Below are positions 123-19,850 of a DNA stretch of 64,000 bases, in pieces. Origin of the DNA: [Clostridium] clostridioforme AGR2157 (GTDB lineage: Bacteria; Bacillota; Clostridia; Lachnospirales; Lachnospiraceae). The notes under the pieces are model-generated. The model ran no database searches and was not told where the DNA came from. It saw nothing but the letters and a program-made list of their open reading frames with translations. Every line of letters starts with the position of its first letter. The first letter of the stretch is position 1. Made by a program: the position numbers and the translations under genes. The stretch lies in the NCBI RefSeq assembly GCF_000424325.1, contig NZ_AUJR01000006.1, positions 62,001 to 126,000 on the forward strand. Reading direction: 5' to 3'.

Positions 123-187
123 ACCAGGAGCGCGGAGCCTTCCGGCGCAATAAGCTCCGGCATATGATGATAAAGGAGGCGGACCGT

Positions 188-1435: not shown

Positions 1436-1440
1436 AACTT

Positions 1441-1470
1441 ATATCGCCATTGCAATGTGGCGATATTTTT
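1441..1470 (+). terminator. Rho-independent terminator after the BTAD regulator
   Basis: Perfect 9-bp inverted repeat ATATCGCCA / TGGCGATAT around an 8-base loop, followed by TTTT. It starts five bases after the stop codon. In the 150 bases between here and the giant surface gene I see no convincing promoter with both -35 and -10 boxes. Confidence 0.85.
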
Positions 1471-1624
1471 GAGCCGTATATAGAAAAATGGGAAAATGCA
1501 CCAGATGTGGCAGGTTGCAGGATACCCCCTTTGATAAAATTAACATTATGGAAAGATCACTTTGTCCATTAAGGGTAATATTAAGGAAAATATAAGAGTT
1601 TGCAAAACATACAGGAGGTAAATG

Positions 1625-4600
1625 ATGAATCGGAGATTGAAAGCGGGCTGGAAGAGGATAACGTCTGTTTTTTTGGCGTTTACCATTGTAAGCATACTGA
1701 TACTGGGCAATTCCGGGATTGCATTTGCCGAAGGATATGACGACAGGTTTTACCGGGAGGAGACGGATCTGTCGGAGCTTGGCGATTTTTCCAAGGCCAC
1801 GGTCAGCAATGCCAGCTTCAGAAATACAAAAAAGGATGATGTTGTTATCAGCATATTCTCAGAAGAGGGGGATTATCGTTCCGGAGGTCTGGTTACCCTG
1901 GATGTACACCTTAAGAATGAGACGGGAACCATGATCACAGATGGCTCCCTGACATATAGCGCCAAGGGAATTCAGGAGGGTTCGGCGGAGTTTCTTCTTT
2001 TGGAGGAATCAGGAGAGGATGAGTTTGATGCCGGCATACCGGACAATGGTATTTTGGATGATGGAGCACCGGAAAATGATATGCTGGATAATGAAACACC
2101 GGAAACGGGTATGCCGCAGGAGCGTGACCAAGATGAAGGTCTGGCTGGAGAAGACTCCGGTGAAAGTGAGGAGCGCAGGGAAAGTCAGGTTGAGATCATA
2201 CCTGAGGATACGTTAACGGATCAGGGTATTCCGGAAGAGGAGGATAGCACAGAGGGACTGGAGCGGATTGAAGGGATCGAACTGGTTCCCGGACAGATTT
2301 ATTCAGTATGTTTTACATTTGCCATTGATGAAGATATTGAGGGGGTACGGAACCAGCAGGTAAAGTTCCAGTTTAACGGAAAAGGTGAAGAAAGAAGAAT
2401 ACGTGTCCGCGAGAGTTTTTTATATACGGTCAATTATCTGAACATAGATTCGGTTGAATTTCATGATGGAAACCGTATAGGAACAGGTGAAACGGTCACC
2501 ATGGGAATCCATGCAGCCATGTTTGATTTTGACGCAATTCTGGAGGATTCCTTTAAGGATGTGGCAGATGCTGCGCCTGCTACACCGTCAGTGGCTGTTC
2601 CAATCGTTCCACCGGCTACGCCATCTGAAGCATTGCCGGCCACACCGTCGCAGGCCCGGCCGGATATATCTTCAAAGCCGGTACCAGAGACGCCGGAAGT
2701 AGATCAGGGCATACCGCAGGAAGCTGAGTCCCAGGCGCCCACGGAGGCAGTTGCAACAGAACCAGAGGAAAACGTGACTCAGGTACCCACAGAATCGTCA
2801 CCAGCTGATCCGGAGGAACAGGCACCCACAGAGGCAGTGCCAGCAGATCCAGAGAAAACCACTGCCCAGGCGTCAGCCGAAGCAGCACCTACGGAAGCAG
2901 CAGCCACAGAAGCAGCATCCACCATGTCATCAGAACCCGTCCAAGAGGTTTCAACAGAGACAGGAGTGACAGAGCATGACCAACGTGAAAAAATGGGGTC
3001 TGAATCCATAGTTAAAATTGAAACAAAGTTGGAAGAACCGGTATCAAGCGCCCAACCGGAAGACAAGACTGATAAGACCGGAAACGAGGTGACTGACAAT
3101 GACGCAACCGGCGATGATGCGACTGACAATGACGCAACCGGCGATGATGCGACTGACGATGACACAGCCGGCGATGATGCAGCTGACGATGGCGCAGCCG
3201 GCGGTGACACGATTGAGAGCAATACGATCCAGAGCGCCCCAAATGAGAGCGATCCGTCAGGAGGACGTAAAGACACAGCTGCGGAAGATGCCAGGGAAAC
3301 TCAGGAAGATGCAGATGAGGAGGAAAGCGAAGATTATACGGTAGACCTTGGAAAAGTAAATTACAGGATTGAAATGTATAACGCCAAGTTAAATAGCTTT
3401 AAGGTGAGAAAGGCATTGGTGGATGATGTAAGGGAGAATATGCTGATCTGTTCCTTCCGCGTGTCCGGGGATGTGAACCCTGGGATCTACTTTGGCAAGA
3501 TCACCCAGGAGAGCAGGGTAAAAGGAAAGACCTGTAAATCCACCCAGGGATTCTCACTGATCGTAACAGGTGATGGGGAGATCTCCCTGGAAGACCAGAT
3601 TGGGGATGCTGCTGTAACGGTCAGCGGGCCAGTGGATTCCTTCCCTGAGGCAGACCAGCTGGCTGTGAGAGTCTCCGAAGTAGAGCAGGCTCAGATGACC
3701 CAGGTGGATGAAGCACTGGAGAAAAAGTCTCAGGAAGAGGGGATCTCCATTCAATCCTACAAAGCCCTGGATATTAAGCTCTACGCGGATGGCGTCGAGG
3801 CTGAACCGGTAGGCCCCATCAATGTAGCCTTTAAAAACCTGGAGCTGGAAAAACGTGATCCTGCGGCTGCGTCTGACGCGCTGCCTGATGCACCGGCCGC
3901 TGTCCAGACGCTGTCCCAGCAGGAGGAAACGGCAGATCCCAGCGAACGGATCCAATCCGGGGGAGAGGAAATCAAAGTCTATCATCTGGATGAAACGCAG
4001 GTTGTGGCAAATGAGATGAACAGCACGGTGGCATCTGACGGAACAGTGGTTATGGAGACAGACCACTTTTCCATATACATTGTGGTCAATGTGCCGGAAG
4101 TAAAAGAAGTGCCTGTGACAGTGGAACACTGGGCACAGTTGGATCAGATGACCTTTGACAGTAATGGGAAAATAAAAGAATCCGTCTCCGGGAACAGGCT
4201 GTATCCGGGAGCCCAGAGCGGAAGCACGTATGCAAAGCAGGAGGTAAAGATATACAGCGATGATAACCTGACCCTGCCCAATGGATCAGGCACAGGGGTG
4301 GATTATTCAATTGCGGTTTCCAACTGGAGTAAGGTTGCTTTGGGCGGTAATTATACGGTGAAAAGTGTGACCATAACCAATGCAAACTACCCCAATGGAC
4401 AGACCTTTACGGAAAATGCAGCAGACCAGAAGATCTATCTCGCTGCCACCAACAATAAGATAAAAATCAACTATGTGCCTACTTCAGGCACCATAAAGGG
4501 ATATACGGGTTTCCACGATTACAATGTTACGGTGGAGGGAAAGACCACGGATGGGAACCATGGAACCCTTAATACCAGCAAGGTGGGAATAAACAATACC

Positions 4601-6964
4601 TCCCTGGGCAGCAGTACCACCCGTATCGGAGTGGGGATCGGAGGGACCGGTCAGGCACAGATACGCCATGGTTATACAGGCGCACCAAACAAGGCAGGTT
4701 CCGTGGTGACAGGGATTCCCCAAGGAACCCTGGCCGCGGACAATATGATTAAGTTTAATTATCAGGATCCGGGCCTTTTTGCAACCCGGGACATTACCAC
4801 CAGTGAAACATATAAGGACGGCAAGAAGGTAACCTATTATGCCAAGAAATACCTGCCAAACTATCAGCTGGGCTTTGAACGCCAGGGGGATACCTATACG
4901 CTGAAATCCGTATACGACAGTTCGGGAAAAACACTTTCAAAAAACCTGGATCAGATCGTCTATACATGTAACAGCTGGAACGGATCCAAGAAACTTTATT
5001 CCAACCTGTTCTGGCCTTTGGACAGTGTCAGTTACAACAACGCGGTTAACGGAAAAAACAGGGATCCTCTGTTTGGCTATAACCATTACGGGTTCCCTCA
5101 AAATGATGAGGATGTGAACAACAAGGGGATCACCCACAACTGGTTTTTCGGAATGCGCTATGACTTTGAGTTTGTCCTGGGAGATTACACAGGGCCCATG
5201 GACTACTATTTCAGGGGAGATGATGATTTCTGGCTGTATGTGGACGGCAATCTGGTAAGTGACGTTGATCTGGGAGGAATCCATTCCGCGGAGGGCTCCT
5301 ATGTGGATCTGAAGTCATGGATGCAGAACAAGGGTCTCCTAAGCGATAAAAACCAGAAGCATACCATGTCGGTCTTCTTTATAGAGAGAGGAGGAACCGG
5401 TTCCTGCTGTTACATGAAATTCACACTTCCAAGCATCACATCAATTCCAACCCCGGAATCCGAGACGGTTTCCCGTACGGTCCAGAAGCTGTGGCTGGAT
5501 GGAAACAATGAGGATAAGAAACGGCCCGAATATATCTATGTCCAGCTGAAACAAAATGGCGCTTCCTACGGAAGTGCGGTCAGGCTGGAGGCCTCCAATG
5601 GCTGGAAGTATACGTGGGATAACCTGCCCAAATATAAGGAAGTGAATTCAGATGAGGAGCATGTTTATACCGTAGAGGAAGTCGGAACAATTGTTGGTTA
5701 TACATCAAGTGTCAATGGGATGACCATCACTAATACCCGGCTCACGGATATCAATGTGAGGAAACAGTGGGTTGGAGGTGCCGGAGAGGGTTCTGTTCAG
5801 GTGGGATTGTTTAAGGACGGAAGTAAAAGGACAGGAGACATTATCACACTGGACAGCTCCAACAACTGGTCCGGCGCATGGCAGAACCTGCCGGGGTATG
5901 ACTCCGGAGGGTCAAAGATCAATTATGTTCCCTATGAGGTAGACTCTTCCGGTAACAAGGTGGAAGCCGGCAGCACGGTGCAGATTGGGGAGGGACAATA
6001 TATTGTCACTTACAGCAGTGATCACTCTGTGATAACCAATACTTATAATCAGAAGGACCTGACAGTGAAAAAAGTATGGGTGGATTATGAAAATACCTAC
6101 CATACGCGGCCTGAGATATTGGAGGTCCAGCTGTATCAGAATGAGGCAGCCTATGGCGGACCTGTAAAACTCAGTGATGCCAACCAATGGACAGCAGATT
6201 GGAAAAACCTGCCTGTAAAAGCGGATGGAAGCTCCCCGCCATATGTTTACACGGTGAGAGAGCTGGACCGGACGGGACGGCCCATAGAGGATGGCAGTAC
6301 GGCAGTACTGTCCTCCGGATACTCCTACACAGCATCCTATGATTCCAGCGGTACGGGTACTTCCGCCAATCCGTTTAGAATAACCAATACCCTTTTGGCG
6401 GCAAAGCTGAGGATCAAAAAGACAGTGGAACAGAACGGACTTGAAAATGAGCCCATTGATCCCACCTATAAATTCGTGATACAGGTCCTGGACAGTAAAG
6501 GAACTGTCTATACGCAGACAGCTCTTGGAAATGGAGAGGAAAGCGGGGCAATCCTTGTAATTCCGCCGGAGGAAGGCCAGATCTTTTCCATTGCGGAGAT
6601 AGTGCCCATGGAATACACCATGACACATATGGAAAGCCAGCCGGCAGGTGCGCTCTCAGAAACTGACAATGGGGATAAAGTTACAGTGAAACCAGGGGAC
6701 GATATCCTGGTCATCCTTACAAACACCCCTGATCACGAGAGCTATTTCCATCACACCGCATCAGTCACAAATGTAAAGGGATTTTCAAATGGGGAGGGAT
6801 CGGATTTCAGGCCGGAGAACCCGTTTACAGAATATCATGGAAGTGACAATCCGCAGTATATGGCATCGGCCTTTACCTCGGACTGCATCATGGCGTTTGT
6901 TGAGGACAAAGGTGTAGCGCGCGGCCAGAGAAAGCTGGAGAAAGGAGATGATCTTTATGGATAA
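1625..6964 (+). CDS. Giant secreted fibro-slime / Cna-B repeat surface protein
   Basis: About 1779 residues. A Sec signal peptide covers residues 1-36 (hydrophobic core VFLAFTIVSILIL, probable cut after AFA). Next come a Glu/Asp- and Pro/Thr-rich region and, at about 490-530, an acidic 10-residue repeat. A fibro-slime/PA14-like domain lies around 1165-1275 (YFRGDDDFWLYVDG, FFIERGG). Three Cna-B-like beta domains (about 1285-1590) and a fourth related domain (about 1593-1703) follow, each ending in an ITNT-like strand. There is no LPXTG signal or C-terminal membrane helix; the protein ends in a charged tail. AGGAGG lies 6 bases before the ATG at 1625; an adjacent ATG at 1622 is possible. It overlaps the next gene by 8 bases, so it belongs to the fibre operon. 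A role in adhesion or matrix is inferred. Confidence 0.85.
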   Translation: MNRRLKAGWKRITSVFLAFTIVSILILGNSGIAFAEGYDDRFYREETDLSELGDFSKATVSNASFRNTKKDDVVISIFSEEGDYRSGGLVTLDVHLKNETGTMITDGSLTYSAKGIQEGSAEFLLLEESGEDEFDAGIPDNGILDDGAPENDMLDNETPETGMPQERDQDEGLAGEDSGESEERRESQVEIIPEDTLTDQGIPEEEDSTEGLERIEGIELVPGQIYSVCFTFAIDEDIEGVRNQQVKFQFNGKGEERRIRVRESFLYTVNYLNIDSVEFHDGNRIGTGETVTMGIHAAMFDFDAILEDSFKDVADAAPATPSVAVPIVPPATPSEALPATPSQARPDISSKPVPETPEVDQGIPQEAESQAPTEAVATEPEENVTQVPTESSPADPEEQAPTEAVPADPEKTTAQASAEAAPTEAAATEAASTMSSEPVQEVSTETGVTEHDQREKMGSESIVKIETKLEEPVSSAQPEDKTDKTGNEVTDNDATGDDATDNDATGDDATDDDTAGDDAADDGAAGGDTIESNTIQSAPNESDPSGGRKDTAAEDARETQEDADEEESEDYTVDLGKVNYRIEMYNAKLNSFKVRKALVDDVRENMLICSFRVSGDVNPGIYFGKITQESRVKGKTCKSTQGFSLIVTGDGEISLEDQIGDAAVTVSGPVDSFPEADQLAVRVSEVEQAQMTQVDEALEKKSQEEGISIQSYKALDIKLYADGVEAEPVGPINVAFKNLELEKRDPAAASDALPDAPAAVQTLSQQEETADPSERIQSGGEEIKVYHLDETQVVANEMNSTVASDGTVVMETDHFSIYIVVNVPEVKEVPVTVEHWAQLDQMTFDSNGKIKESVSGNRLYPGAQSGSTYAKQEVKIYSDDNLTLPNGSGTGVDYSIAVSNWSKVALGGNYTVKSVTITNANYPNGQTFTENAADQKIYLAATNNKIKINYVPTSGTIKGYTGFHDYNVTVEGKTTDGNHGTLNTSKVGINNTSLGSSTTRIGVGIGGTGQAQIRHGYTGAPNKAGSVVTGIPQGTLAADNMIKFNYQDPGLFATRDITTSETYKDGKKVTYYAKKYLPNYQLGFERQGDTYTLKSVYDSSGKTLSKNLDQIVYTCNSWNGSKKLYSNLFWPLDSVSYNNAVNGKNRDPLFGYNHYGFPQNDEDVNNKGITHNWFFGMRYDFEFVLGDYTGPMDYYFRGDDDFWLYVDGNLVSDVDLGGIHSAEGSYVDLKSWMQNKGLLSDKNQKHTMSVFFIERGGTGSCCYMKFTLPSITSIPTPESETVSRTVQKLWLDGNNEDKKRPEYIYVQLKQNGASYGSAVRLEASNGWKYTWDNLPKYKEVNSDEEHVYTVEEVGTIVGYTSSVNGMTITNTRLTDINVRKQWVGGAGEGSVQVGLFKDGSKRTGDIITLDSSNNWSGAWQNLPGYDSGGSKINYVPYEVDSSGNKVEAGSTVQIGEGQYIVTYSSDHSVITNTYNQKDLTVKKVWVDYENTYHTRPEILEVQLYQNEAAYGGPVKLSDANQWTADWKNLPVKADGSSPPYVYTVRELDRTGRPIEDGSTAVLSSGYSYTASYDSSGTGTSANPFRITNTLLAAKLRIKKTVEQNGLENEPIDPTYKFVIQVLDSKGTVYTQTALGNGEESGAILVIPPEEGQIFSIAEIVPMEYTMTHMESQPAGALSETDNGDKVTVKPGDDILVILTNTPDHESYFHHTASVTNVKGFSNGEGSDFRPENPFTEYHGSDNPQYMASAFTSDCIMAFVEDKGVARGQRKLEKGDDLYG
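3091..3210 (+). repeat. 30-bp tandem repeat inside the giant surface gene
   Basis: Four head-to-tail 30-bp units encode a 10-residue acidic repeat. The first two (3091-3120 and 3121-3150) are identical and the last two are diverged. The length is a multiple of three, so copy-number change would keep the frame. Confidence 0.9.
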
Positions 6965-7616
6965 AAGAAAGGTCTTATCCAGGCTGCTGCCAATGATCGT
7001 GCTGGTATCCGTATCCATTGCCGCCGGGGTAACAGGCGCCACGGTTATCCACTCCATGCAGCTGGAAAATCCCATAAAGACGCCTGTGGTAGAGGGAGGG
7101 ATAACAGAAAACCTGGACCAGGGGGCGAAGGAGGTTTCTTTTACCAATAATGGGGAGGCGGATGTATTTTTAAGAGTTGCATTTGCACAGTCATGGGTTG
7201 CACATGATGGTACAGTGCTCCCTAATAATATAGTAGATGCATCCGGTCAGGCTTTGCCCGTGGCTGTTCCCAGCCTTTCATTGGACGGCAATTGGGAAGG
7301 CGGGGAGGATGGGTGGTATTACTACAAAAAGGTGCTTCCCGGTTCCGCATCAGGCATGCAGGACCGCAGTACGGAAAAGCTGGTCCGGGGCGTGGATTTT
7401 ATGGATCTGACAGGGATAGAGGATCAGCGGTATAAAAATGCAGAGTATAAATTCCATTTTACGATGGAGATCGTGCAGTCCAGCGATGACTGGAATGTCA
7501 GCAGGAAGGCAGTGCAGCGGCTTTTTGACAGGGACATTTCAGTGATGCCGGATAACTGGGACGGAGATAAATATGGATGCAGTATTAACTGGAATGTTGA
7601 TTCCGGAAAAAATTAG
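6957..7616 (+). CDS. TasA/CalY-like SipW-dependent fibre subunit 1
   Basis: About 219 residues. The N-terminus is basic and then hydrophobic (LLPMIVLVSVSIAAGVTGAT), followed by LENPIKT, where related proteins carry the SipW-type cleavage region. The mature part shares with its neighbours the strand pattern FTNNGEADVFLRVAF and the block GWYYYKKVLPG. TasA/CalY family proteins are exported, trimmed by SipW and polymerise into extracellular fibres in Bacillus. In-frame ATGs occur at 6948 and 6957; I chose 6957 because AAGGAG ends 9 bases upstream. Its start lies inside the end of the giant gene, so translation is probably coupled. Confidence 0.75.
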   Translation: MDKRKVLSRLLPMIVLVSVSIAAGVTGATVIHSMQLENPIKTPVVEGGITENLDQGAKEVSFTNNGEADVFLRVAFAQSWVAHDGTVLPNNIVDASGQALPVAVPSLSLDGNWEGGEDGWYYYKKVLPGSASGMQDRSTEKLVRGVDFMDLTGIEDQRYKNAEYKFHFTMEIVQSSDDWNVSRKAVQRLFDRDISVMPDNWDGDKYGCSINWNVDSGKN

Positions 7617-7628
7617 GAGGTGGTTGTT

Positions 7629-8372
7629 TTGAAAGGATTAGAGATCCATACATGGCTGAAAAACAAAAAGACAGCCTGTCTCCTGATACTGGTCATATTG
7701 CTCCTGTCATTTGCAGTCACATTGGCATATTACAGTGATATCCTGACCCTGGCCAATCCCCTGGGAACTTCCCACAGCGGGGCGGCCATGGTGGAAAGTT
7801 TTGACCCGGAGAGTTCGTTCCTGCCCGGGGAGACAGTGATTAAAAAAGTTTCGTTTCAAAACACAGGTAAAATGGACCTGTTCCTGCGTGTCGAAGTACC
7901 TCCCCAGGAGAACTGGTACCGGAAGGGGCAGGGGAGCAGCCCGCCTGTTATCCTTGAAAAAGAAGCTGGCTATGACACGGATCATGTGATCAAACATTGG
8001 AATCCGGGAGTCTGGGTCGATCCCGGCCAAACAGAGGGAAATGTAGATTATATGAACATGGAGACTGAGTTCTGGTCAAAGTCATACACGGATAGGAACG
8101 GAAAGAGCTACCGGTATTATAAACAGATCCTTCCGGCAGGGGAAACCACGGACTGTATCCTTGAGAGCATCAGCCTGAGCGATGAAGTGTCAAATGACCG
8201 GCATGACGTGGATTACAGCGATAAGATTTATAAACTGACCTTCCATGCAGAGGCGGTTCCTGTTGAGGAACATGATTCGGCCGTGGGGGTACAGTCACAG
8301 TGGAATATGGTGGTTCAGGAAGACAGCAGTGGTGTACTGACATGGAGTCAGGGCAGCCGGGCCGGTGAATGA
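7629..8372 (+). CDS. TasA/CalY-like SipW-dependent fibre subunit 2
   Basis: About 247 residues. It has a basic N-terminus (KNKK), a hydrophobic segment (ACLLILVILLLSFAVTLAYY) and then LTLANPLGTSHS, the layout of a SipW-type signal. The mature part has VSFQNTGKMDLFLRVEVP and YRYYKQILPAGE, shared with the other subunits. A GTG at 7620 overlaps the AGGAGG at 7615-7620, so I take the TTG at 7629, 8 bases after that site, as the start. It follows subunit 1 by 12 bases and the next gene begins 17 bases after it, so all are one operon. Confidence 0.72.
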   Translation: MKGLEIHTWLKNKKTACLLILVILLLSFAVTLAYYSDILTLANPLGTSHSGAAMVESFDPESSFLPGETVIKKVSFQNTGKMDLFLRVEVPPQENWYRKGQGSSPPVILEKEAGYDTDHVIKHWNPGVWVDPGQTEGNVDYMNMETEFWSKSYTDRNGKSYRYYKQILPAGETTDCILESISLSDEVSNDRHDVDYSDKIYKLTFHAEAVPVEEHDSAVGVQSQWNMVVQEDSSGVLTWSQGSRAGE

Positions 8373-8389
8373 TACAGGAGGACAGGAGA

Positions 8390-9355
8390 ATGAGAATAAA
8401 CGGAAAAGTCATAGCAGCGGCCGCAATGCTGGCAGTGGCCGGGCTCGGCGGGACATTTGCTTACTTTAACCAGACTCTGACAGCCGCCAACATATTTGAC
8501 ACAGGGAAATATGATACGGAACTGGTTGAAGAGTTTAAGCCTTCGGAGGGCGAGAACTGGGGGCCTGGAACCAGTGTGAACAAGGATGTGACGGTCCGCA
8601 ACACAGGCACCCTTCCCGTGGTGGTGCGGGTGAAATTCCAGGAAAAGTGGGTCAGGGGACAGGAGGAATTCTATTTTACAGACACCTCTCTGGAAAAGGA
8701 GCGGCCGGCTGCCATTGGAAGCCCATCCAATGCCAACAATGCATTTGAGAACGTTTACCAGGGTGACCCGGAAGACGGCATTGCCAATCCTGACGCGGAT
8801 GACTCAGTGGTATTTAAGAGCATGGCGCCGGATGGCGGCTGGGTTTATAATCCGGCGGACGGATATTATTACTATATGTATGTCCTTCCCGGGGCAGTAG
8901 AGAAGGAGGATGGCAGCCAGGACATTGCGGAGACAACCAAGCTCCTCGATGGCGTGACCCTGGCGGAAAATGTGGATATGGGTTCATACAAGGAGACCCG
9001 GTATTATGCCACCACGGGTCAAAGGCCGGAGAATGAAAGCGGCGACTGGGTGGAATTCGCCACGGCCAGCAATGCATCCAGCCCTCTTGGATATGATTAC
9101 ATTTCCACCAGGGAAATGAATGAGCGCCTGAAGGCGGATGGAAGCCAGATAACCTTTATGAAATCAGTCACTGATCTCAGGGATGCCAAGCTGGCAGGGT
9201 ACAGTGGCGCTGATTATACACTGGTGGTGGCAGCCCAGACCGTACAGGCAACGGACCAGGCCGTTAACACAGTATTTGGAAATGGCGGTGTCTTTGATTT
9301 TAAGCAGCTTGGATGCGATTGGAAGCTGATCAGCGAGTCAGAGATCCAGAAGTAA
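8390..9355 (+). CDS. TasA/CalY-like SipW-dependent fibre subunit 3
   Basis: About 321 residues. The N-terminus GGTFAYFNQTLTAANIFDTG is a close match to the TasA/CalY signal and early mature region. It continues with VRNTGTLPVVVRVKF, then GYYYYMYVLPGA and, near the end, a YTLVV...VQATDQAV block. That last block recurs in subunit 4 and in the wall-anchored subunit, suggesting one conserved fold. The ATG at 8390 has AGGAGG ending 8 bases upstream; an ATG at 8369 has no such site. Expected to be secreted, cut by the SipW peptidase of this operon, and assembled outside the cell (inference from family). Confidence 0.8.
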   Translation: MRINGKVIAAAAMLAVAGLGGTFAYFNQTLTAANIFDTGKYDTELVEEFKPSEGENWGPGTSVNKDVTVRNTGTLPVVVRVKFQEKWVRGQEEFYFTDTSLEKERPAAIGSPSNANNAFENVYQGDPEDGIANPDADDSVVFKSMAPDGGWVYNPADGYYYYMYVLPGAVEKEDGSQDIAETTKLLDGVTLAENVDMGSYKETRYYATTGQRPENESGDWVEFATASNASSPLGYDYISTREMNERLKADGSQITFMKSVTDLRDAKLAGYSGADYTLVVAAQTVQATDQAVNTVFGNGGVFDFKQLGCDWKLISESEIQK

Positions 9356-9472
9356 GTTCAGTTGTCCAAAAGAGAATGATTAAACAGGTTATTACCGCCT
9401 ATGTTTTTTAGATGGACGGACCAATATAACAAAATGGAAGCATTATAATATGAAAAAGCAGGAGGAAAAGAC

Positions 9473-10408
9473 ATGAAGAAGTTAAATAAGAAAGCAGCGG
9501 CAGGAATCGGGCTTGGAGCATTAGCCCTGGTGGGAGGAACATTTGCATACTATTCACAGACAGCGTCCCTGGATAACCCGCTGAGCACAGGCAAATATAC
9601 CACCCAGCTGGTGGAGGATTACACACCGCCAACGGAAGATTTAAAGCCGGGCGCTAAGTGGGATAAGAATGTAGGTGCGGAGAATACCGGAGATTATCCC
9701 GTCCTTGTCAGGGTAAGCATGAAAGAAAACTGGTCCTACAAGGGAGCGGCGGACCCCTACAAAACCATATTGAGCGATTCAGACCTGTTTGACAACGGAA
9801 CCTATGCCGGCGGAATCTTTGACGCAGCCCAGGTTAATGATACCGATGGCCTGACACCGGCAGAGGACGGCACCGTGGTACATAAGAACATTCTGACTGA
9901 TGCCGGCTGGATCGATGGAGGGGACGGATACTGGTACTGGAACGGCGTTCTGGAGAAAAAAGGGTCCGCCAAGTCCAGCACCACCCACCTGTTGGAAGGG
10001 CTGACCATGGCCACGGATATTGACCTTGGCTACTATGAGACAAAAGAGTACTATGCCATTGCAGCAACACAACCGGATCTGGATAATACCAATGCCTGGA
10101 CATTGATTGACTGGACCCAGGTTGATGATGAGAACAATGACGGCCTTAAAGATATACGCGACTTGGCAGCTGTTACAACTATCCCTGAGGGAGAGAGTCT
10201 GTTCCGCAAATCCGAATCCAATTTAGACAGCGATAAGAAGGGCTACGGAGACTCCAACTACACACTGACCGTTACCTCTGAGTTTGTCCAGGCCACAAAG
10301 GATGCAGTGACCGATTCCTGGGCAGGATTCAATCTGGATCAGCTGACCAATGTACAGGTTAATGCAGAGGACGGCGTAAATCTTGAGAATAAAACTGTTA
10401 CACCATAA
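9473..10408 (+). CDS. TasA/CalY-like SipW-dependent fibre subunit 4
   Basis: A 311-residue protein and the most typical family member here: GGTFAYYSQTASLDNPLSTG at the signal/mature junction, AENTGDYPVLVRVSM, DGYWYWNGVLE, and YTLTV...VQATKDAV near the C-terminus. AGGAGG lies 6 bases before the ATG. A 117-base gap separates it from subunit 3. It holds a TATAAT at 9444-9449 but no good -35 box, so a separate promoter for this abundant-looking subunit is possible but unproven. It sits directly before the signal peptidase gene, the same order type as tasA/sipW loci (known from Bacillus). Confidence 0.82.
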   Translation: MKKLNKKAAAGIGLGALALVGGTFAYYSQTASLDNPLSTGKYTTQLVEDYTPPTEDLKPGAKWDKNVGAENTGDYPVLVRVSMKENWSYKGAADPYKTILSDSDLFDNGTYAGGIFDAAQVNDTDGLTPAEDGTVVHKNILTDAGWIDGGDGYWYWNGVLEKKGSAKSSTTHLLEGLTMATDIDLGYYETKEYYAIAATQPDLDNTNAWTLIDWTQVDDENNDGLKDIRDLAAVTTIPEGESLFRKSESNLDSDKKGYGDSNYTLTVTSEFVQATKDAVTDSWAGFNLDQLTNVQVNAEDGVNLENKTVTP

Positions 10409-10423
10409 TACAGAGGCCGATGA

Positions 10424-10921
10424 ATGAACGTTCTGAAACAATTGTTTAATATCCTTTCATGGCCCGTGTATCTGTGTATTGCCGGATACCTTCTGATTGC
10501 AGCTCCCATGCTGGCCGGTTACCGGCCGGTGGTGGTGCTCAGCGGAAGTATGGAGCCCGCCTTTCCTGTTGGAAGCGTGATTTACTATAAAGCGGCTTCC
10601 TTTGAGCAGATTCAGGAGGGAGACCCCATCACCTTCCATGCGGGTGAGGATGGCTCGCTGGTCACCCACAGGGTAGTGGAAAAGCAGGAGCTGAGCCGTG
10701 ATTTTATCACCAGGGGCGATGCCAATGAGACTGCGGACCCAAACCCGGTTTCATATGACCGCGTGGCAGGCAGGGCGGCTGATGTGAGGATTCCTTATGC
10801 CGGATATTTTGTCACCTATGGCAGAACACCTCAGGCAATTGGGGGCATGGGAGGAATCCTGGTGATCGGGATATTACTTGATTTTATCTGCCCGGGAAAG
10901 AAGCGGGAGGAAAAGGCATAA
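10424..10921 (+). CDS. sipW: SipW-type (ER-type) signal peptidase I
   Basis: A 165-residue peptidase with an N-terminal membrane segment (YLCIAGYLLIAAPMLAG) and a C-terminal one (GGILVIGILLDFIC). The catalytic Ser is in VVLSGSMEP and the His in THRVV. A Ser-His pair in place of Ser-Lys marks the ER/SipW type, as in archaeal and sporulation peptidases. SipW proteins process TasA/TapA-type precursors; here five candidate substrates share its operon. The ribosome site is weak (GAGG about 9 bases upstream). The gene starts 15 bases after subunit 4. Confidence 0.93.
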   Translation: MNVLKQLFNILSWPVYLCIAGYLLIAAPMLAGYRPVVVLSGSMEPAFPVGSVIYYKAASFEQIQEGDPITFHAGEDGSLVTHRVVEKQELSRDFITRGDANETADPNPVSYDRVAGRAADVRIPYAGYFVTYGRTPQAIGGMGGILVIGILLDFICPGKKREEKA

Positions 10922-10971
10922 ACGCCTGTTGGCAGTATAGCTGTAATCCGTTTGGACAGGAGATTGATGTT

Positions 10972-12618
10972 ATGAAAAAAGGCAAGATCATGTTATTGGG
11001 CCTGGCAGTTCTGGCGGCTGCATCGGTGGGAACTACCTGGGCGGCGTGGTCCCAGGTAATACGGACCGGCAATGAATACAGGGTTCCCAGGTACAAAACC
11101 AGCCTTGAGGAGCATTTCCGCCAGCCGGATGACTGGCAGCCAGGTATAACCACACAAAAGCAGGTATGGGTATCCAACAACCTGAAAGCAGAGGACGGCA
11201 GCCTGGAGAGCGGTGTGCCTGCCATTGCCAGGGCGGAGATCCACCAGAGCTGGATACGGCGGGAAAATGTTTACGTCCTGGATAAGGATGGCAATGAGAC
11301 AGCGGTCCCTCCACTTGAGGGGGAGGCGCTGCCCCCTGACTTTGTGACAGACCAGGGAGAGCGCCAGTACGCGGCGGTCCCTGCTTTTAATAAAGGATCC
11401 GTTATGGTGCTCCGGTCCGGAATGGCGCAGGATGCCGGCATACGCCTGAATCTGCCCTATGCAGACAAGGTGGAGGATGCCAGGGGAAGATGGCTCCTGG
11501 TGGATGAGGATCCGTCGGAGACGGGGAATTACGTGTTGTATTACATAGGGGTGATACAGCCGGGGGAAGACTCGCCGGTGTTTCTGGAAAGCGTGACCAT
11601 GAACCCCCTTCTGGAGAACACCATAACGGGAAAAGACACCTGTTATGAGAAGACAGAGGATGGTTACAAGCAGATTACCGTGACCCATACCAGCGCCAAG
11701 TACGGGTATGACAGCAGCAGGTACACCATGGATATAAAGGCCACCACGGTGCAGGCCACCAAGGCAGCGGTGGAGCATACGTTTACCGGCGGATTTAATC
11801 AGGAAGTGATCCGCTACCTGGCCGATCAGGTGGCGGATCCCGGCGTCTATGACGCCTCCGGCCTGGAAAAGAAGCTGACCCTGGTCTACAACTGGGGAAG
11901 CCAGAGACTTGAGTACGTACCCTACCGCTCCGGAACCGGGGAGGAGGAAGGAAACTGGTTCATGAGTTTTACAGACATGGTCCCGGGAGGTATCTACAAA
12001 GACCGCCTGAAGGTGGAGAACACCACATCCAACCAGACTGCCAGGGTCTATATGCGGATCGCTCCAAGAGAGCAGGAGAAGATAAAAGACGAGCTCCTGG
12101 AAAAGATCACCATGAAGGTCACATTCCAGGGCAGTGTCCTCTATGATGGAAAGGTGACCGGCGCCAGATACGGGGAAGGTGAAAACCTTCAGGAGCTGAT
12201 TCCCCTGTGTTATCTGAAAAGCGGGACATCTGAGGAGATCCAGGTGGAGCTGCAGCTGGATCCCTCCATTACCTGCGACCCGGTAACGGGAGCGTGTATC
12301 TATGCCGATCAGCTTGCCAAGATCGACTGGGAATTCATGCTCCAGACATTCTCGGAAAATGGCGGTGGAGGGGGCGGCGGAGGTGGCGGCGGCAGAGGCG
12401 GAGGCGGAGGCCGAAGAAGCGTAACCACCATTGACGATGCAGAGGTTCCACAGGCTGTCATGATCCCTGATCCGGAGATACCGTTGGCCGCACTTCCAAA
12501 AACAGGGGACACCACCCCGCTGTTTATGCTGGGAGCCATGACCGCAGTCAGTTTCCTCCTGCTTTCCGCACTGGGAATCTTATGGATCAGGACGCGCAGA
12601 AAAGAGGATAAAGCGTGA
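10972..12618 (+). CDS. Wall-anchored TasA-like protein with LPKTGD sorting signal
   Basis: A 548-residue protein. Its signal region (LGLAVLAAASVGTTWAAWSQ) and first ~270 residues follow the TasA-like pattern, including YTMDIKATTVQATKAAV. A second domain runs to about residue 460. Then come a glycine-only stretch broken by one Arg, a short spacer, the sorting motif LPKTGD, a hydrophobic helix and the basic tail RTRRK. It should therefore be cut by SipW at one end and linked to peptidoglycan by a sortase at the other, making it a candidate fibre base (inference). AGGAGA lies 8 bases before the ATG. Its stop overlaps the GTG of the sortase gene by 4 bases. Confidence 0.88.
   Translation: MKKGKIMLLGLAVLAAASVGTTWAAWSQVIRTGNEYRVPRYKTSLEEHFRQPDDWQPGITTQKQVWVSNNLKAEDGSLESGVPAIARAEIHQSWIRRENVYVLDKDGNETAVPPLEGEALPPDFVTDQGERQYAAVPAFNKGSVMVLRSGMAQDAGIRLNLPYADKVEDARGRWLLVDEDPSETGNYVLYYIGVIQPGEDSPVFLESVTMNPLLENTITGKDTCYEKTEDGYKQITVTHTSAKYGYDSSRYTMDIKATTVQATKAAVEHTFTGGFNQEVIRYLADQVADPGVYDASGLEKKLTLVYNWGSQRLEYVPYRSGTGEEEGNWFMSFTDMVPGGIYKDRLKVENTTSNQTARVYMRIAPREQEKIKDELLEKITMKVTFQGSVLYDGKVTGARYGEGENLQELIPLCYLKSGTSEEIQVELQLDPSITCDPVTGACIYADQLAKIDWEFMLQTFSENGGGGGGGGGGGRGGGGGRRSVTTIDDAEVPQAVMIPDPEIPLAALPKTGDTTPLFMLGAMTAVSFLLLSALGILWIRTRRKEDKA
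12361..12411 (+). repeat. GGN trinucleotide tract encoding a poly-glycine linker
   Basis: A run of GGC/GGA/GGG codons gives 12 consecutive Gly, one Arg and five more Gly just before the sorting signal. Such a tract can change length in steps of three by replication slippage. Confidence 0.85.
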
Positions 12619-13346
12619 AGGATAAAAAGCAGGGGATGAGGCCCGTTGTCCTGCCCCTGTCCTTCCTGGCAATCCTGGGAATCTTCCTGGTGTCCGCCGG
12701 CCTGCTGTGCCGCTCCCTGTATGAATACAGGAAAGGGGAGAAGGAGTACGGGGAACTCCGGCAGTATGCAGCCAATGCCTCTGATCCGGAAACAGATCCC
12801 CAGTCTCCGGGCAGCCTGTCTACCGGGGAGCGGGAACCCATGCTGGCCATTGATTTTGAGACCCTTAAAAAGCTTAATCCCCATATCGTTGCGTGGATCC
12901 ATATTCCGGGGACACCGGTAAGCTACCCTGTGACCCAGGGGGAGGACAATTCCTATTACCTTACAAGGACATTTTCCAAGGCATATAACGGAGCCGGATG
13001 CATTTTCATGGATTACAGAAGCAGTCTGCCCTCAGAGGGCGGGAACACGGTTCTCTATGGGCATAATATGAAAAACGGCTCCATGTTCGGTTCCCTGAAG
13101 CGTTACTGGGACAATGAATATTATAGGGAGCACTCCTCCTTTTACCTGTACACGGCAGAGGGGGATATTTTCCTGTGCCATATTACGGGCCGCCGCACGA
13201 TCCCTGCGCAGACCGATTTTTTTTCCGGGGTGCAGGATAAAGAGGATGAAAAGGGTAGAGACGCCAGGGTCACACTGGTGACCTGTGTGGCGGGGAAAAA
13301 TGAGGAACGGCTGGCAATAGAGGCAGATGCAGAGCAGATGGAATGA
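12615..13346 (+). CDS. srtB: Class B sortase
   Basis: A 243-residue transpeptidase with an N-terminal membrane anchor (LSFLAILGIFLVSAGLLC). The catalytic His is in LYGHNM, the Cys in VTLVTC and the Arg in ERLAIEA, with the class B spacing. Sortases join surface proteins to the cell wall. Clostridial class B enzymes are known to accept (S/P/N)PXTG-like motifs, so the LPKTGD protein directly upstream is the obvious substrate. The start is GTG, overlapping the upstream stop codon by 4 bases, with an AGAGGA site. It is the last gene of the surface operon; I see no clear terminator after it. Confidence 0.93.
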   Translation: MKDKKQGMRPVVLPLSFLAILGIFLVSAGLLCRSLYEYRKGEKEYGELRQYAANASDPETDPQSPGSLSTGEREPMLAIDFETLKKLNPHIVAWIHIPGTPVSYPVTQGEDNSYYLTRTFSKAYNGAGCIFMDYRSSLPSEGGNTVLYGHNMKNGSMFGSLKRYWDNEYYREHSSFYLYTAEGDIFLCHITGRRTIPAQTDFFSGVQDKEDEKGRDARVTLVTCVAGKNEERLAIEADAEQME

Positions 13347-13380
13347 AAGATGGCAATGGCGGCATTGCTGGCGTGGATAC

Positions 13381-13416
13381 AAATCAGGAATCAAATCAGG
13401 AATCAAATCAGGAATT
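13381..13416. repeat. Three 12-bp tandem repeats after the sortase gene
   Basis: AAATCAGGAATC twice, then AAATCAGGAATT, head to tail. They start 34 bases after the sortase stop codon and end just before the tRNA-Gln promoter. Confidence 0.9.
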
Positions 13417-13439
13417 CTGCAAAAGTGGGTTTCAAAAAC

Positions 13440-13468
13440 TTGCAAACCGATAAATTCTATGGTATTAT
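13440..13468 (+). promoter_or_regulatory. Sigma-A promoter of tRNA-Gln
   Basis: TTGCAA (13440-13445), a 17-base spacer and TATTAT (13463-13468). The predicted start is about 25 bases before the tRNA. Confidence 0.7.
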
Positions 13469-13500
13469 AATTTGGCATGCCGGATTACTATATGGCTTGT

Positions 13501-13572
13501 TGGGCCGTCGCCAAGCGGTAAGGCACAGGACTTTGACTCCTGCACTCGAGGGTTCGAATCCCGCCGGCCCAG
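13501..13572 (+). tRNA. tRNA-Gln (anticodon TTG)
   Basis: A 72-base cloverleaf. The 7-bp acceptor stem TGGGCCG/CGGCCCA has the U1-A72 pair and G discriminator typical of tRNA-Gln. The anticodon stem CAGGA/TCCTG carries loop CTTTGAC with anticodon TTG, and the T arm has GGTTCGAATCC. CCA is not encoded. Confidence 0.96.
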
Positions 13573-13584
13573 TACGATGGGGAA

Positions 13585-13630
13585 AGTCCGCAGGGACGCC
13601 AGTTTGAAGGCGTTTCTGCGGGCTTTTCTT
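13585..13630 (+). terminator. Terminator after tRNA-Gln
   Basis: A 16-bp stem (13585-13600 with 13609-13624), including a few G-U pairs, an 8-base loop and a following T-rich stretch. Confidence 0.85.
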
Positions 13631-13699
13631 CTATAATAATGTACTGCGCATGATAATATAATCCACATAAGGCCAGAGGATGTGGGAGGAGGAAAGAAG

Positions 13700-14767
13700 A
13701 TGGAGAGAAAGAGAATCAGGGATTTTGGCATTGTGCCGGGCGTCATGAAAACCGGGCCTAAAAATAAGATTACAGACGTGCCGGGCGTGCTGGTAGGCCA
13801 TAAGACAGTGAGAAATGGGGACAACAGGACCGGCGTCACGGTTATTGTACCGGGACCTGGAAATGTATTTGACCGCAAGTTTATAGCTGCGGGATACGTG
13901 CACAATGGATTCGGCAAGACCTGCGGCCTGGTACAGGTGGAGGAGCTGGGAACCCTGGAGACTCCCATTGCCCTGACCAATACCCTGAACGTGGGTCTGG
14001 CAGCCGACGCCCTGGTGGAGTATACCATCAGGCAGTGCGCAAAGGACCAGGTGGAGGTCACGTCCGTAAGCCCGGTGGTGGGTGAGTGCAATGACTGCAG
14101 GATTAACCGCATTCAGCACAGGGCTGTGTCCATGGAAGATGTGATGGAAGCATTTTCCCGGGCAGGTGAGGATTTTGAGGAGGGTGATGTGGGCGCAGGC
14201 ACGGGAACCGTGTGCTATGGCCTGAAGGGAGGAATCGGTTCCGCCTCCAGAATCATGAGAATCGGCGGAAAAAATTACACGCTGGGGGTTCTGGTGCAGT
14301 CCAATTTCGGGGCAACAGAAGACTTGGTAATAGACGGCATCCGGGCCGGTGAACGGATTCTGGTGGAAAAGGAAAGGCGCAGGAAGATGGCCACCGCAGA
14401 ACAGGACCAGGGCTCCATTATGACCGTCATCGCCACGGACCTGCCTGTCAGTGACCGTCAGCTTAAGCGCATTATCCGCAGGGCAGGTGTGGGCATCGCA
14501 AGGACAGGCGCCTACACCGGTCACGGCAGCGGCGAGGTGATGATTGGGTTCACCACCGCAGGCCGTCTTCAGGGAAAGGATGGTCCGGAAATCATGACAA
14601 GCACCTGCATCAGGGAGGATCTGATTAACGTGGCCTTCAAGGCAGCGGCGGAAGCTGTTAATGAAGCCATCCTGAATTCCATGACAGCAGCCGGACGTGC
14701 CGAGGGACTGGCAGGGGAGGTGTATTACAGCCTGTCGGAGTTCCTTCCGCAGATTCTTAAAAATTAA
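13700..14767 (+). CDS. DmpA/P1-family aminopeptidase (self-processing)
   Basis: About 355 residues, the usual size for the P1 (DmpA/BapA) family. These enzymes cut themselves before a Ser/Thr to make an alpha/beta heterodimer and then release N-terminal residues, including D-amino acids or beta-amino acids, from small peptides. Supporting motifs are ITDVPGVLVGH near the start, TNTLNVG, and GGIGSASR, where the Gly-Ser bond is the expected cleavage site. The ATG at 13700 follows a GGAGGAGGAAAG site. It ends head-on against the regulator on the other strand (4-base overlap) and lies next to a peptide-uptake operon, so a role in the same nutrient route is likely (inference). Confidence 0.88.
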   Translation: MERKRIRDFGIVPGVMKTGPKNKITDVPGVLVGHKTVRNGDNRTGVTVIVPGPGNVFDRKFIAAGYVHNGFGKTCGLVQVEELGTLETPIALTNTLNVGLAADALVEYTIRQCAKDQVEVTSVSPVVGECNDCRINRIQHRAVSMEDVMEAFSRAGEDFEEGDVGAGTGTVCYGLKGGIGSASRIMRIGGKNYTLGVLVQSNFGATEDLVIDGIRAGERILVEKERRRKMATAEQDQGSIMTVIATDLPVSDRQLKRIIRRAGVGIARTGAYTGHGSGEVMIGFTTAGRLQGKDGPEIMTSTCIREDLINVAFKAAAEAVNEAILNSMTAAGRAEGLAGEVYYSLSEFLPQILKN

Positions 14768-16893
14768 TGACGAAGGGACATAAGTCCCTGCTCTGTTATC
14801 TCGCAGCCTCCCCTGGTGCGGTTGATGCGGATAAGTCCTTCTTCAGATAATTCTTTCAGCAGCCCTCGCAGGCGGCCGTCGCTTAATTCCACTCCGGCCT
14901 CTGCCAGGGTATTTTTTATGGCTCCCCGGCCGATGCGGGGGGAGGCGGCTATGGCAGCCAGCACCCTGAGGCGGACCGGGCTGTGGTCCCGGTCGGATTT
15001 TCGCATCTGGTTCCTGATATAGGAGGGAAGCTGTGCCAGTATCAGGGGATGGGCAGCATAGTGGGAGAAAAAATAACGGGTCAGGTTATAAAGCTCCTGG
15101 ACATTGCCGGGGTAATCGTAGCCCAGCAGGAAGTCAAAGAGACTGGAGGACAGGATGTCCTTGGCCATAAGGCTCTTGTTGTGGAACAGCTCGCGGAAGA
15201 ACTGGTCCATGAGCAGAGGGATGTCCTCCCTGCGTTTCCTGAGGGGCAGGGTGTCGATGGAAGCCGCATTCAGCAGGAAGAACAGCTCTTCCCGGAAGGT
15301 GCCCTGCTGTACCATCTCGTACAGGTCCTGCCCCGCCGTGGCGATGATGCGCACATCAAAGGGGGAGAAGTGGGTTCCGAAGACATTTCCGGTTCGGTTG
15401 TCCTGAAGAATGTGAATCAGGAGCCCCTGAATCTCGGGAGACAGGTATTCGGCGCTGTCAATGAGCAGGGTTCCGTGGTTGGCCTCTTTGAACAGTTCCA
15501 GCATCTGGGAGAGCGGATCAGAGACAATCAGGGCTGCTCCTGACAGGCCGGAGGTTCCGTCCGGGTCTGATAAAACGCCCGGGCCGGGAGCGCTGTTTGG
15601 GCCGGAAACTCCATTTGGGCCGGAAACCCAGCCTGGTCCGGAAGTCCCGTTTATCCTTGCGGCCACATTAAGCCCCATGGGCATATTCAGACAGACAAAG
15701 GGATGCTGCCTCCTGGAGGAGGTCCTGTGTATGGCCCTGGCCAGGAGCTTTTTCTGGGTTCCGCTCTCGCCCTGAATCAGCACAGGGAAGTCATAGAGGG
15801 AGAGCCTGCGGGCATATTCCAGGATGTTCTTCATGGGCTCCGAGGCAGTGGTAAAGCTGGTGAACATGCTGTCCGCATATCTGGAGTCGGAGAATACAGG
15901 GTCCGGAAGCGGAGGGTAATACGCGGTCCCGTCAGCCAGCACAGGACACGGCGTGCTGTTGAGCAGGTACAGGGGCTCGTGGTTGGGCAGCAGCAGTTCA
16001 AGGGAGCTGAGCAGGAGAGGCTTTCCGCTGCGGTTCATCACCTTGTAATCCGCGCTGTGACAGAAATCCATGCCCTTACAGGGATGTGGCAGGAACCGGG
16101 ACAGATTCCGGCCCGTGATGCCTGTCTCCGGCAGCTCCAGGTCCATGGAGAATCTGCGGTTTACCATGTTGATTTCCCCGCGGACCGACAGAAGGCACAG
16201 GCCGATGGGAAGATTGCTGATAACGGTCTGGAGAAGCTGCCGGGAATAGATGTAATCCTGGTAATAGGCGCTGGTCAGCTTGGCAATCTGCATGATGCTG
16301 TTCACATAGGACTTGGTAATCTGGTTGGACAGGCTGGCGGGAAGATGGAAATACTCGCACAGCTCATTGACAGTGGAGATGTCGATGATGCGGTTGCCGA
16401 TATCAATGACATTGGTGATATGGCTGGGAACCAGCTGGGGCTCGCCTACGGTGATGGCATAGTGGATGGACTCGTCAGCAAGGATGCATCCCGGATAAAA
16501 GGGCTCAAACCGGTACTGCACCACCCCCGCCTCCTTTAGCTGGTCCATGATGGTGACAATGGAGTCATAGGTGTCGTTTACTATGTAGACACGTTCACCG
16601 GGCGGTATGCGGATGATTTGGTCCAGACAGGCGTGGTTGAAGGTCCTGGTACAGATAATCTCCATGACCTCCCCTGGGATGGGGATGGGAAATTCAGACT
16701 GGACCAGGGGGCTGGAAAAAAGGATGCACTGGTATCCCTTGATTTGCTCCGGACGCTGGACCTGATCCAGACCAATTGTATCAAAGGCAATGTGGGCTCC
16801 CAATATCTTGTGGAGATAGCTCTGGAATTCAAGGCGTATGTTGGAATTGATGCTGACTATGAGTACATGGTATTTTGGTTGGCTTCTGTCCAT
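14764..16893 (-). CDS. Degenerate sigma-54-family regulator lacking the GAFTGA loop
   Basis: A 709-residue protein with an N-terminal sensory region, a PAS-like domain (about residues 215-300) and an AAA+ domain like those of sigma-54 activators. The catalytic features are broken. The Walker A motif reads GESGTQKKLL where GTGKELF is usual, the Walker B region reads LLIDSAEYL without the Asp-Glu pair, and the GAFTGA loop that touches sigma-54 is absent. A Gly/Pro/Ser-rich insert (about 413-450) stands near that place. The C-terminus is a winged helix (LKELSEEGLIRI) rather than a Fis-type helix. It probably works as an ATP-independent repressor or activator with sigma-A (inference). The start is supported by AGGAGG 7 bases upstream. 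It is divergent from the peptide operon, its likely target. Confidence 0.8.
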   Translation of the reverse strand: MDRSQPKYHVLIVSINSNIRLEFQSYLHKILGAHIAFDTIGLDQVQRPEQIKGYQCILFSSPLVQSEFPIPIPGEVMEIICTRTFNHACLDQIIRIPPGERVYIVNDTYDSIVTIMDQLKEAGVVQYRFEPFYPGCILADESIHYAITVGEPQLVPSHITNVIDIGNRIIDISTVNELCEYFHLPASLSNQITKSYVNSIMQIAKLTSAYYQDYIYSRQLLQTVISNLPIGLCLLSVRGEINMVNRRFSMDLELPETGITGRNLSRFLPHPCKGMDFCHSADYKVMNRSGKPLLLSSLELLLPNHEPLYLLNSTPCPVLADGTAYYPPLPDPVFSDSRYADSMFTSFTTASEPMKNILEYARRLSLYDFPVLIQGESGTQKKLLARAIHRTSSRRQHPFVCLNMPMGLNVAARINGTSGPGWVSGPNGVSGPNSAPGPGVLSDPDGTSGLSGAALIVSDPLSQMLELFKEANHGTLLIDSAEYLSPEIQGLLIHILQDNRTGNVFGTHFSPFDVRIIATAGQDLYEMVQQGTFREELFFLLNAASIDTLPLRKRREDIPLLMDQFFRELFHNKSLMAKDILSSSLFDFLLGYDYPGNVQELYNLTRYFFSHYAAHPLILAQLPSYIRNQMRKSDRDHSPVRLRVLAAIAASPRIGRGAIKNTLAEAGVELSDGRLRGLLKELSEEGLIRINRTRGGCEITEQGLMSLRH

Positions 16894-16913
16894 GGTCCGT
16901 CCTCCTGTATAAT

Positions 16914-16957
16914 ATTAGGTTAATTATAACAAAAAGATTAGGATATAACAACCTAAT
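16914..16957. promoter_or_regulatory. Candidate operator: repeated ATTAGGTT boxes
   Basis: ATTAGGTT (16914-16921) and its exact complement AACCTAAT (16950-16957) form an inverted repeat with a related ATTAGGAT (16937-16944) between them. They lie between the degenerate regulator and the promoter of the peptide operon. An operator role is inferred. Confidence 0.45.
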
Positions 16958-17010
16958 GACTTTAAATTTTAAATTTTAACGAATGCTTTACGGAAAAAAG
17001 AATGATTTAT

Positions 17011-17040
17011 TTGACAAGGCAGCACAGAAACGTGTAAAAT
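17011..17040 (+). promoter_or_regulatory. Sigma-A promoter of the peptide operon
   Basis: TTGACA (17011-17016), an 18-base spacer and TAAAAT (17035-17040), about 88 bases before the start codon of the binding-protein gene. Confidence 0.75.
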
Positions 17041-17127
17041 TATTGTAGCAAGGATGCTTACGAAATGAGCGTGAGAGCTGTAGGTTTCCAGGCTTTTTTT
17101 GTATCATCACAAAAAGGAGGATATTCT

Positions 17128-18813: not shown

Positions 18814-18820
18814 AAGGCTT

Positions 18821-18860: not shown

Positions 18861-18913
18861 AGAATAAAATACAGGGTGTATACCCAATAATGATATGAAA
18901 GGTGAGAGTTTAT

Positions 18914-19834: not shown

Positions 19835-19850
19835 AAGGGGGCGACAAAAG

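Follow-up and report, generated by a model that had tools for sequence, protein, structure and literature searches.

Known TasA-type fibres serve as matrix scaffolds, while their hold on the cell and the partners at their ends are less clear. How such a fibre may be tied to the wall and closed at its far end is the question raised by a locus in a stretch of 64,000 nucleotides from [Clostridium] clostridioforme AGR2157 (contig NZ_AUJR01000006.1, positions 62,001 to 126,000 of the forward strand), the whole of which is referred to here as the window. The locus is a tight operon encoding five TasA/BsaA-type proteins (T1 to T5), a sortase, probably of class B (SrtB), and a SipW-type signal peptidase whose gene sits between those of T4 and T5. 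A preliminary description of the window had placed these seven genes together at 6957-13346, and family models bear this out (TIGR04090, TIGR02228 and TIGR03064; scores below, those of T1 and the sortase being under the cut-offs). As judged from the gene layout, the operon probably starts further upstream, at 1622, with the gene of a large adhesin. The favoured reading, given a rough probability of 0.58, is a chain in which the adhesin gives a strand only, the subunits both give and accept one, and a wall anchor fixed by SrtB accepts only. Within this reading, a fibre with a wall-anchored subunit is held with more confidence than the placing of the adhesin at its tip.

The proposed fibre operon and its parts

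1622-6964, forward strand: large unanchored adhesin of 1780 amino acids with a signal peptide (TIGR02148 fibro-slime, 50.5 bits, cut-off 45; Cna_B, E 3.9e-43, three stretches)
6743-6787, forward strand: donor-strand-like motif YFHHTASVTNVKGFS near the adhesin C-terminus (best of 1766 windows along the protein, by a genome-left-out profile of subunit N-termini)
6957-7616, forward strand: T1, weak TasA-like subunit (TIGR04090, 28.2 bits, E 1.4e-6; strand TVIHSMQLEN... at 7041-7085)
7629-8372, forward strand: T2, TasA/BsaA-like subunit (TIGR04090, 85.2 bits, E 5.6e-24; strand YYSDILTLAN... at 7728-7772)
8390-9355, forward strand: T3, TasA/BsaA-like subunit (TIGR04090, 175.1 bits, E 1.9e-51; strand YFNQTLTAAN... 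at 8462-8506)
9473-10408, forward strand: T4, TasA/BsaA-like subunit (TIGR04090, 148.1 bits, E 3.5e-43; TIGR04088, 26.9 bits; strand YYSQTASLDN... at 9548-9592)
10424-10921, forward strand: SipW-type signal peptidase (TIGR02228, 100.5 bits, cut-off 51.85)
10972-12618, forward strand: T5, putative base subunit with a TasA-like N-terminal domain and an anchor-type domain at about 11866-12399 (TIGR04090, 141.9 bits, E 2.7e-41)
12493-12615, forward strand: sorting signal of T5, comprising LPKTGD, a membrane span and a basic tail (TIGR01167, 20.0 bits, cut-off 15.9)
12615-13346, forward strand: class B sortase, SrtB (TIGR03064, 137.7 bits, cut-off 153.75; PF04203, E 1.2e-15)

The probable operon start at 1622 is proposed because the adhesin gene overlaps the T1 gene and contains the likely ribosome-binding site of T1 (AAAGGAG, 9 bases upstream of the ATG at 6957). 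A promoter and terminator scan of 1200-13700 found sites no more numerous than in shuffled sequence, so no statement is made on internal promoters.

TIGR04090, named 'BsaA family SipW-dependent biofilm matrix protein' in NCBIfam, has a cut-off of 60 bits that T2 to T5 pass and T1 does not, making four of the five. T1 matches the hidden Markov model of its own family (E 2.3e-26), a model built with T1 included, and is possibly an adaptor adjoining the adhesin. T3, which starts at the ATG at 8390 and was searched from codon 8387, which reads R, also matches camelysin (PF12389, E 3.9e-8), a family matched by T4 as well. T4 is a candidate for the major subunit. TasA/CalY-type signals had been ascribed to all five proteins in the preliminary description; the cut-off of the SipW-type signal model TIGR04088 (19 bits) is passed by T3 (30.9 bits) and T4 only. 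The motifs described as common to the five fared unevenly as well: the strand around N...V-R is found in all, YYY/YWY can be made out plainly in T1, T3 and T4 and in variant form in T2 and T5, and VQAT is limited to T3, T4 and T5. An alignment of T1 to T5 with the citroniae orthologues has ten invariant columns, including the N of the mature N-terminal strand. A structure model of T4 made with AlphaFold from ten window and citroniae sequences consists mostly of strands, but with a predicted local distance difference test score of 39.6 and a predicted template modelling score of 0.43 it is too poor to test the fold.

The donor-strand-like motif of the subunits

Past the signal peptide, many subunits start with the pattern Y-F-T-D-x(5)-N-x-F-T-x-G. 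A regular expression placed the N of this motif in 100 of 145 subunits, and the motif profile was built on those (95 distinct). When a 30-subunit profile was compared with the PDB, TasA chains took the top two places (fibre 8aur, E 0.0046; crystal 5of1, E 0.032), with the E value for 8aur being 0.0046 for the whole sequence and 0.056 for the aligned stretch. By sequence, F-T-D...N-x-F aligns in register with the TasA N-terminus, which is the donor strand, while the alignment is poor past the first 60 residues. Searches of the PDB with T3 and T4 as single sequences gave no relevant match up to E 10. The donor strand of B. subtilis TasA, which completes the next subunit, is made up of residues 28-38, with hydrophobic contacts by F29, I32 and F39 (PMC9674648). 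Residues 44-57 of TapA alone, when secreted, sufficed for proper biofilms in a strain, so that a strand borne by another molecule can work (PMC10151520).

The adhesin and its C-terminal motif

The adhesin has no sorting signal and, by hydropathy, no C-terminal membrane span. A pattern in the tail was first spotted by eye in adhesins adjoining subunits, reading YFHHTASVTNVKGFS in the window and YFTDKTMKTNSIKVK in another locus (L051). In the adhesin of the window, the motif scores 11.3 and the next best match elsewhere in the protein 7.9. For counting, an adhesin was defined as a protein of at least 500 residues with a signal peptide, without a membrane tail and adjoining a subunit. This rule replaced first-pass scans made without it, and the proteins from L067, L090 (6211) and L056 (8658), in which the motif was the best match in the first pass, fail the rule and are not counted. 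The set keeps proteins of other kinds, which count as misses. Each protein was scored with the profile from subunit N-termini, its own genome left out, and success meant that the best match of the whole protein fell in its last 80 windows.

In the discovery set, the best match lies in the tail of 10 of 21 adhesins (expected 1.8, P 2e-6), compared with 25/119 among other large open reading frames (expected 19.4), and none of 1000 column-permuted profiles reaches 10. Because the motif idea arose from these data, a separate validation set was used, with the test fixed beforehand. It comprised 40 stretches of 32 additional genomes, all from genera that had given no discovery loci. This yielded 6 of 16 (expected 1.3, P 0.001), or 7 of 16 with a 12-column profile (P 1e-4); permuted profiles reach 6 in 5 of 500 cases, and controls give 16/87 (expected 12.3). 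Combined, the two sets amount to 16 of 37 adhesins, and 12 of the 37 have tails scoring beyond the 97.5th percentile set by 206 control tails. Secreted unanchored proteins that do not adjoin subunits give 17/89 with a 15-column profile (expected 16.6). The test was also reversed: when subunits were scanned with a profile made from adhesin C-termini, the top-scoring position fell in the donor zone in 62 of 135. Since the subunits are related to one another, permutation is the fair yardstick here, and over 500 permuted profiles the mean was 24.5 and the maximum 50.

The wall-anchored subunit, the adjacent sortase and the SipW-type peptidase

As claimed in the preliminary description, a single one of the five proteins, T5, bears a wall-sorting signal; none is found in T1 to T4. 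The tail of T5 reads IPLAALPKTGD, followed by a membrane span and RTRRKEDKA, the IPLA ahead making a doubled motif; T5 matches the doubled-motif anchor NF033073 with E 8.4e-8, under the cut-off. Residues 299-476 match a model of the anchor domain (E 9.1e-42; model built with T5 included), and this rear-half domain recurs in many loci, preceding tails such as VKTGD, a membrane span and a basic end. The anchor-domain profile matches 10 of 196 genomes of the class, namely the own genome and nine of other families. Its comparison with the subunit profile by hhalign gives a probability of 99.7, for an aligned part that covers signal peptides and with both sets drawn from the same loci. In the locus of genome G015, the front half of T5 and its rear half are matched by different proteins (L048 12779, E 1.8e-27; 15486, E 7.4e-4), a clue to a fusion. 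Among 135 TasA-type open reading frames, the 19 that are tail-anchored have a median donor-motif score of 1.8, compared with 11.0 in the other 116 (p 2.5e-5).

The anchor-domain profile was also compared with the PDB, where TasA came second and third (E 0.33 and 0.51) behind an unrelated top match at 0.26. As this match outranks TasA, the comparison was rejected as proof of kinship. A poly-glycine linker precedes the T5 sorting signal (about 12355-12420) and varies in length between sister species, the T5 proteins having 548, 544 and 550 residues.

The start of the sortase gene overlaps the end of the T5 gene by 4 bases, and its class B score of 137.7 bits is far above those of the other class models listed. 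Class B sortase matches were also observed within open frames of about 4100-4250 residues (G000:C15, G151:C10, G152:C1 and G158:C7). The signal peptidase matches the Bacillus SipW model with E 1.3e-25, under that model's own cut-off, and is the one TIGR02228 match of its genome at E 0.001. As a separate observation, TIGR02228, which models archaeal-type signal peptidases, is matched 36 times in genome G149; the range in 32 other genomes is 1 to 12, and most of the matches shown are weak.

Occurrence in relatives

The whole eight-gene order is found again in two genomes (G151 and G152). A TIGR04090 match occurs in 6 of 17 genomes of the genus, with the cut-off passed in 3 of 17; the corresponding figures are 28/150 and 6/150 in a family sample and 70/397 and 19/397 in a larger, overlapping one. 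Co-occurrence of sipW and srtB with such genes in relatives was the test that the preliminary description had set for itself, and it came out in favour: a class B sortase lies within 10 kilobases of a TasA-like cluster in 11 of 33 genomes with matches, while random placement (25 kilobases per cluster) would give about 0.95. Counting any sortase, the figure is 17/33. Across 83 loci, a SipW-type gene is present in 73, a tail-anchored TasA-type protein in 52, a sortase in 28 and an adhesin by the above rule in 36; SipW, anchor and sortase stand together in 21, and all four parts in 6. The count of 52 anchored proteins is rough, as the tail rule misses some (L048, L062) and requires no sorting motif.

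A second type of locus was observed in L069, L071, L073, L074, L082, L087 and L097. It comprises a TasA-like pair, an anchored TasA-type protein (with tails such as VKTGDD) and SipW, with a sortase of whichever class nearby in all except L069. L074, L087 and L097 also hold LPSTG-tailed proteins, and this locus type may join both kinds of pilus.

Proposed assembly and competing explanations

What was observed are the genes and the families they belong to, the sorting signal, the company that such genes keep again and again, and the common motif with its statistics. On this basis, an assembly can be proposed in which the operon 1622-13346 would make a surface fibre bound to the cell wall. T1 to T4 and the front half of T5 would be exported and cut by the operon's own SipW, freeing an N-terminal strand that would fill the groove of the next subunit, as in TasA. 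At the cell, the chain would end in T5, the rear half of which is a putative TasA-type domain of the kind mostly without a donor strand; a chain with one fixed end requires a base that takes a strand without giving one. The adjacent SrtB, with T5 as its presumed substrate, would join this base to the wall through the LPKTG of LPKTGD. At the other end, the adhesin strand would enter the open groove of the first subunit, making the adhesin the tip. The adhesin is without an anchor but has a donor-strand-like motif near its C-terminus, with which it could plug this groove. The order of parts and the polarity of the fibre would follow from no more than the consideration that the donor is on the adhesin and the anchor on the base. 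The claim in the preliminary description of a fibre cut by SipW and fixed through one base subunit thus stands as far as TasA-type subunits, a cognate SipW and one wall-anchored subunit go, and was incomplete in that the adhesin at the front and its C-terminal motif were missed.

If the assembly holds, donor-strand exchange and sortase anchoring would be joined in one appendage, a new Gram-positive way to build a pilus. In addition, many proteins that gut Lachnospiraceae export would be given a suggested function, and fibre-borne adhesins could be predicted by a sequence rule that looks for large unanchored proteins with a strand motif close to their end. It is only tentatively suggested, at somewhat less than even odds, that this represents a pilus class of its own among Gram-positive bacteria, one that recurs in Lachnospiraceae, with a non-covalent donor-strand shaft, an adhesin cap and a groove-only base fixed by sortase, and with the part types (donor-only, donor-plus-acceptor and acceptor-only) setting the order of assembly.

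Several observations weigh against the proposed chain, many of them concerning the adhesin motif. The adhesin of the window on its own reaches a p of only 0.046, and the N of its motif YFHHTASVTNVKGFS lies 64 residues from the C-terminus. Two of the ten discovery matches (L055 and L059) are not a terminal motif, and when the profile has 12 columns, one permutation in 1000 attains the discovery count. The best match lies outside the tail in 11 of 21 discovery and 10 of 16 validation proteins of the adhesin set, and thus in more than half. The motif may instead serve as a tag recognised by some other partner, or be a closing beta-strand of the ordinary kind that resembles a subunit N-terminus, an explanation that is compatible with the other readings and is considered rather unlikely. 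It would fit the many misses, the H found in many adhesins at the position of the subunit D, and the small excess in secreted controls with 12 columns (24/89, expected 16.5, P 0.03). What speaks against it is that permuted profiles so rarely reach the observed counts (0/1000 in discovery, 5/500 in validation) and that the 15-column profile gives no excess in secreted proteins away from subunits.

The subunits themselves add further counts against the chain. By TIGR04088, T2 scores 15.9, below the cut-off of 19, and T1 and T5 give no match; the T5 N-terminus scores -1.4 for the donor motif, and T1 nowhere exceeds 1.6 in its first 95 residues. T3 is the only one of the five among the 62 matches of the reverse test. 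Three tail-anchored proteins (L051, L052 and L059) do carry the donor motif; they are two-domain proteins like T5, and so are some low scorers.

The sortase is the other point of doubt, as 55 of the 83 loci have none in the examined stretch. It can be imagined that T1 to T4 simply polymerise outside the cell as a secreted matrix of the BsaA type, with T5, SrtB and the adhesin being surface proteins in their own right that have no more than the operon in common with them. The loci without a sortase would suit this explanation, as would C. perfringens, where srtB lies beside sipW-bsaABCRSD, BsaA is a pellicle matrix protein without LPXTG, and BsaA polymerises in the absence of SrtB, with most of the polymer found outside the cell (PMC7395162). 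Deletion of srtB there altered neither BsaA polymers nor pellicles (PMC7395162), which further weighs against the wall-bound chain. The case differs in that BsaA has no sorting signal; still, it warns against reading function from gene company. A plain matrix is nevertheless considered improbable here, as T5 itself fuses a TasA-like domain (TIGR04090, E 2.7e-41) to an anchor, a tail-anchored TasA-type protein occurs in 52 of 83 loci, and the common strand motif ties the adhesin to the subunits. Polymerisation of the subunits by SrtB into a covalent pilus, for which the overlap of the sortase and T5 genes and the part taken in streptococcal pilus assembly by the class B sortase Spy0129 (PMC3019223) could be cited, is very improbable and was rejected as the principal explanation: four of the five subunits carry no sorting signal, so SrtB has no known handle on T1 to T4, and the class C sortase model scores only 12.3 bits.

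Comparison with known fibres and pili

In class C sortase (SpaA-type) pili, there is an adhesin, a shaft and a wall-anchored base, and the shaft subunits are generally described as each having a sorting signal and being covalently joined. The proposed donor-strand chain resembles these pili in having an adhesin, shaft and wall-anchored base, and differs from them in that T1 to T4 lack sorting signals and the sortase is not of class C (cut-off of the class C model, 160 bits). The C. perfringens bsa locus likewise has subunits of the BsaA family, a cognate SipW in the operon and an adjoining srtB (PMC7395162). What sets the operon of the window apart, in a comparison made with BsaA only, is the one wall-anchored protein among five TasA-like proteins and the giant adhesin. 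Because SipW-dependent BsaA fibres with a neighbouring srtB had thus been published, the novelty is narrower than the preliminary description implied: SipW-dependent TasA/BsaA fibres and the srtB neighbour were known. The proposed division of parts into donors and acceptors is new here, and the operon differs in that one of its subunits has a sorting signal of its own. Among the literature matches listed, which covered titles and abstracts and left subscription papers and preprints outside their scope, there was no paper on a sortase-anchored TasA-like fibre with a donor-motif adhesin, and none on the base with its anchor or on the strand of the adhesin.

The tapA-sipW-tasA system of B. subtilis has SipW-processed subunits, as predicted for the window, an N-terminal donor strand, with whose register the strand of the window subunits agrees by sequence, and a minor partner able to give a donor strand, which there is TapA (PMC9674648, PMC10151520). 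Unlike in B. subtilis, the operon of the window has a sortase signal, and its candidate extra donor sits towards the C-terminal end of an adhesin instead of at the N-terminus of a chaperone-like protein. No TapA-named family matched the eight scanned proteins (to E 1), in libraries whose content of a TapA model is unchecked. The TasA/CalY/CapP system of B. cereus also has more than one subunit of the TasA/camelysin type, but is called sortase-independent by its authors; CapP is found at the cell wall, making it a wall-linked partner without sortase (PMC13082335). For an archaeal thread that is likewise a chain joined by donor strands in its case, Saci_0405 has been proposed as a cap that donates a strand and has no groove; unlike the adhesin, this cap uses its N-terminus and has a pilin fold, and the authors note no sortase in the group (PMC9715654).

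The upstream regulator and other features of the window

164-1435, forward strand: BTAD protein, probable regulator (PF03704, E 9.3e-7; weak TPR and GGDEF-like matches)

This protein, encoded ahead of the operon, may control the fibre locus, as BTAD is also matched by proteins scanned from other fibre loci (L048, L062 and L066). In C. perfringens, the bsa operon has a two-component regulator instead (PMC7395162).

Downstream of the fibre locus, in a region (13500-24642) scanned for some of its genes, are a tRNA-Gln at 13500 and a peptidase S58 gene at 13682-14767. On the reverse strand, 14764-16893 encodes a sigma-54-type AAA+ regulator, whose AAA domain is matched in two stretches with a repeated insert rich in Gly, Pro and Ser between them. 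Further downstream are peptide transport genes with an M55 D-aminopeptidase at 22725-23525.

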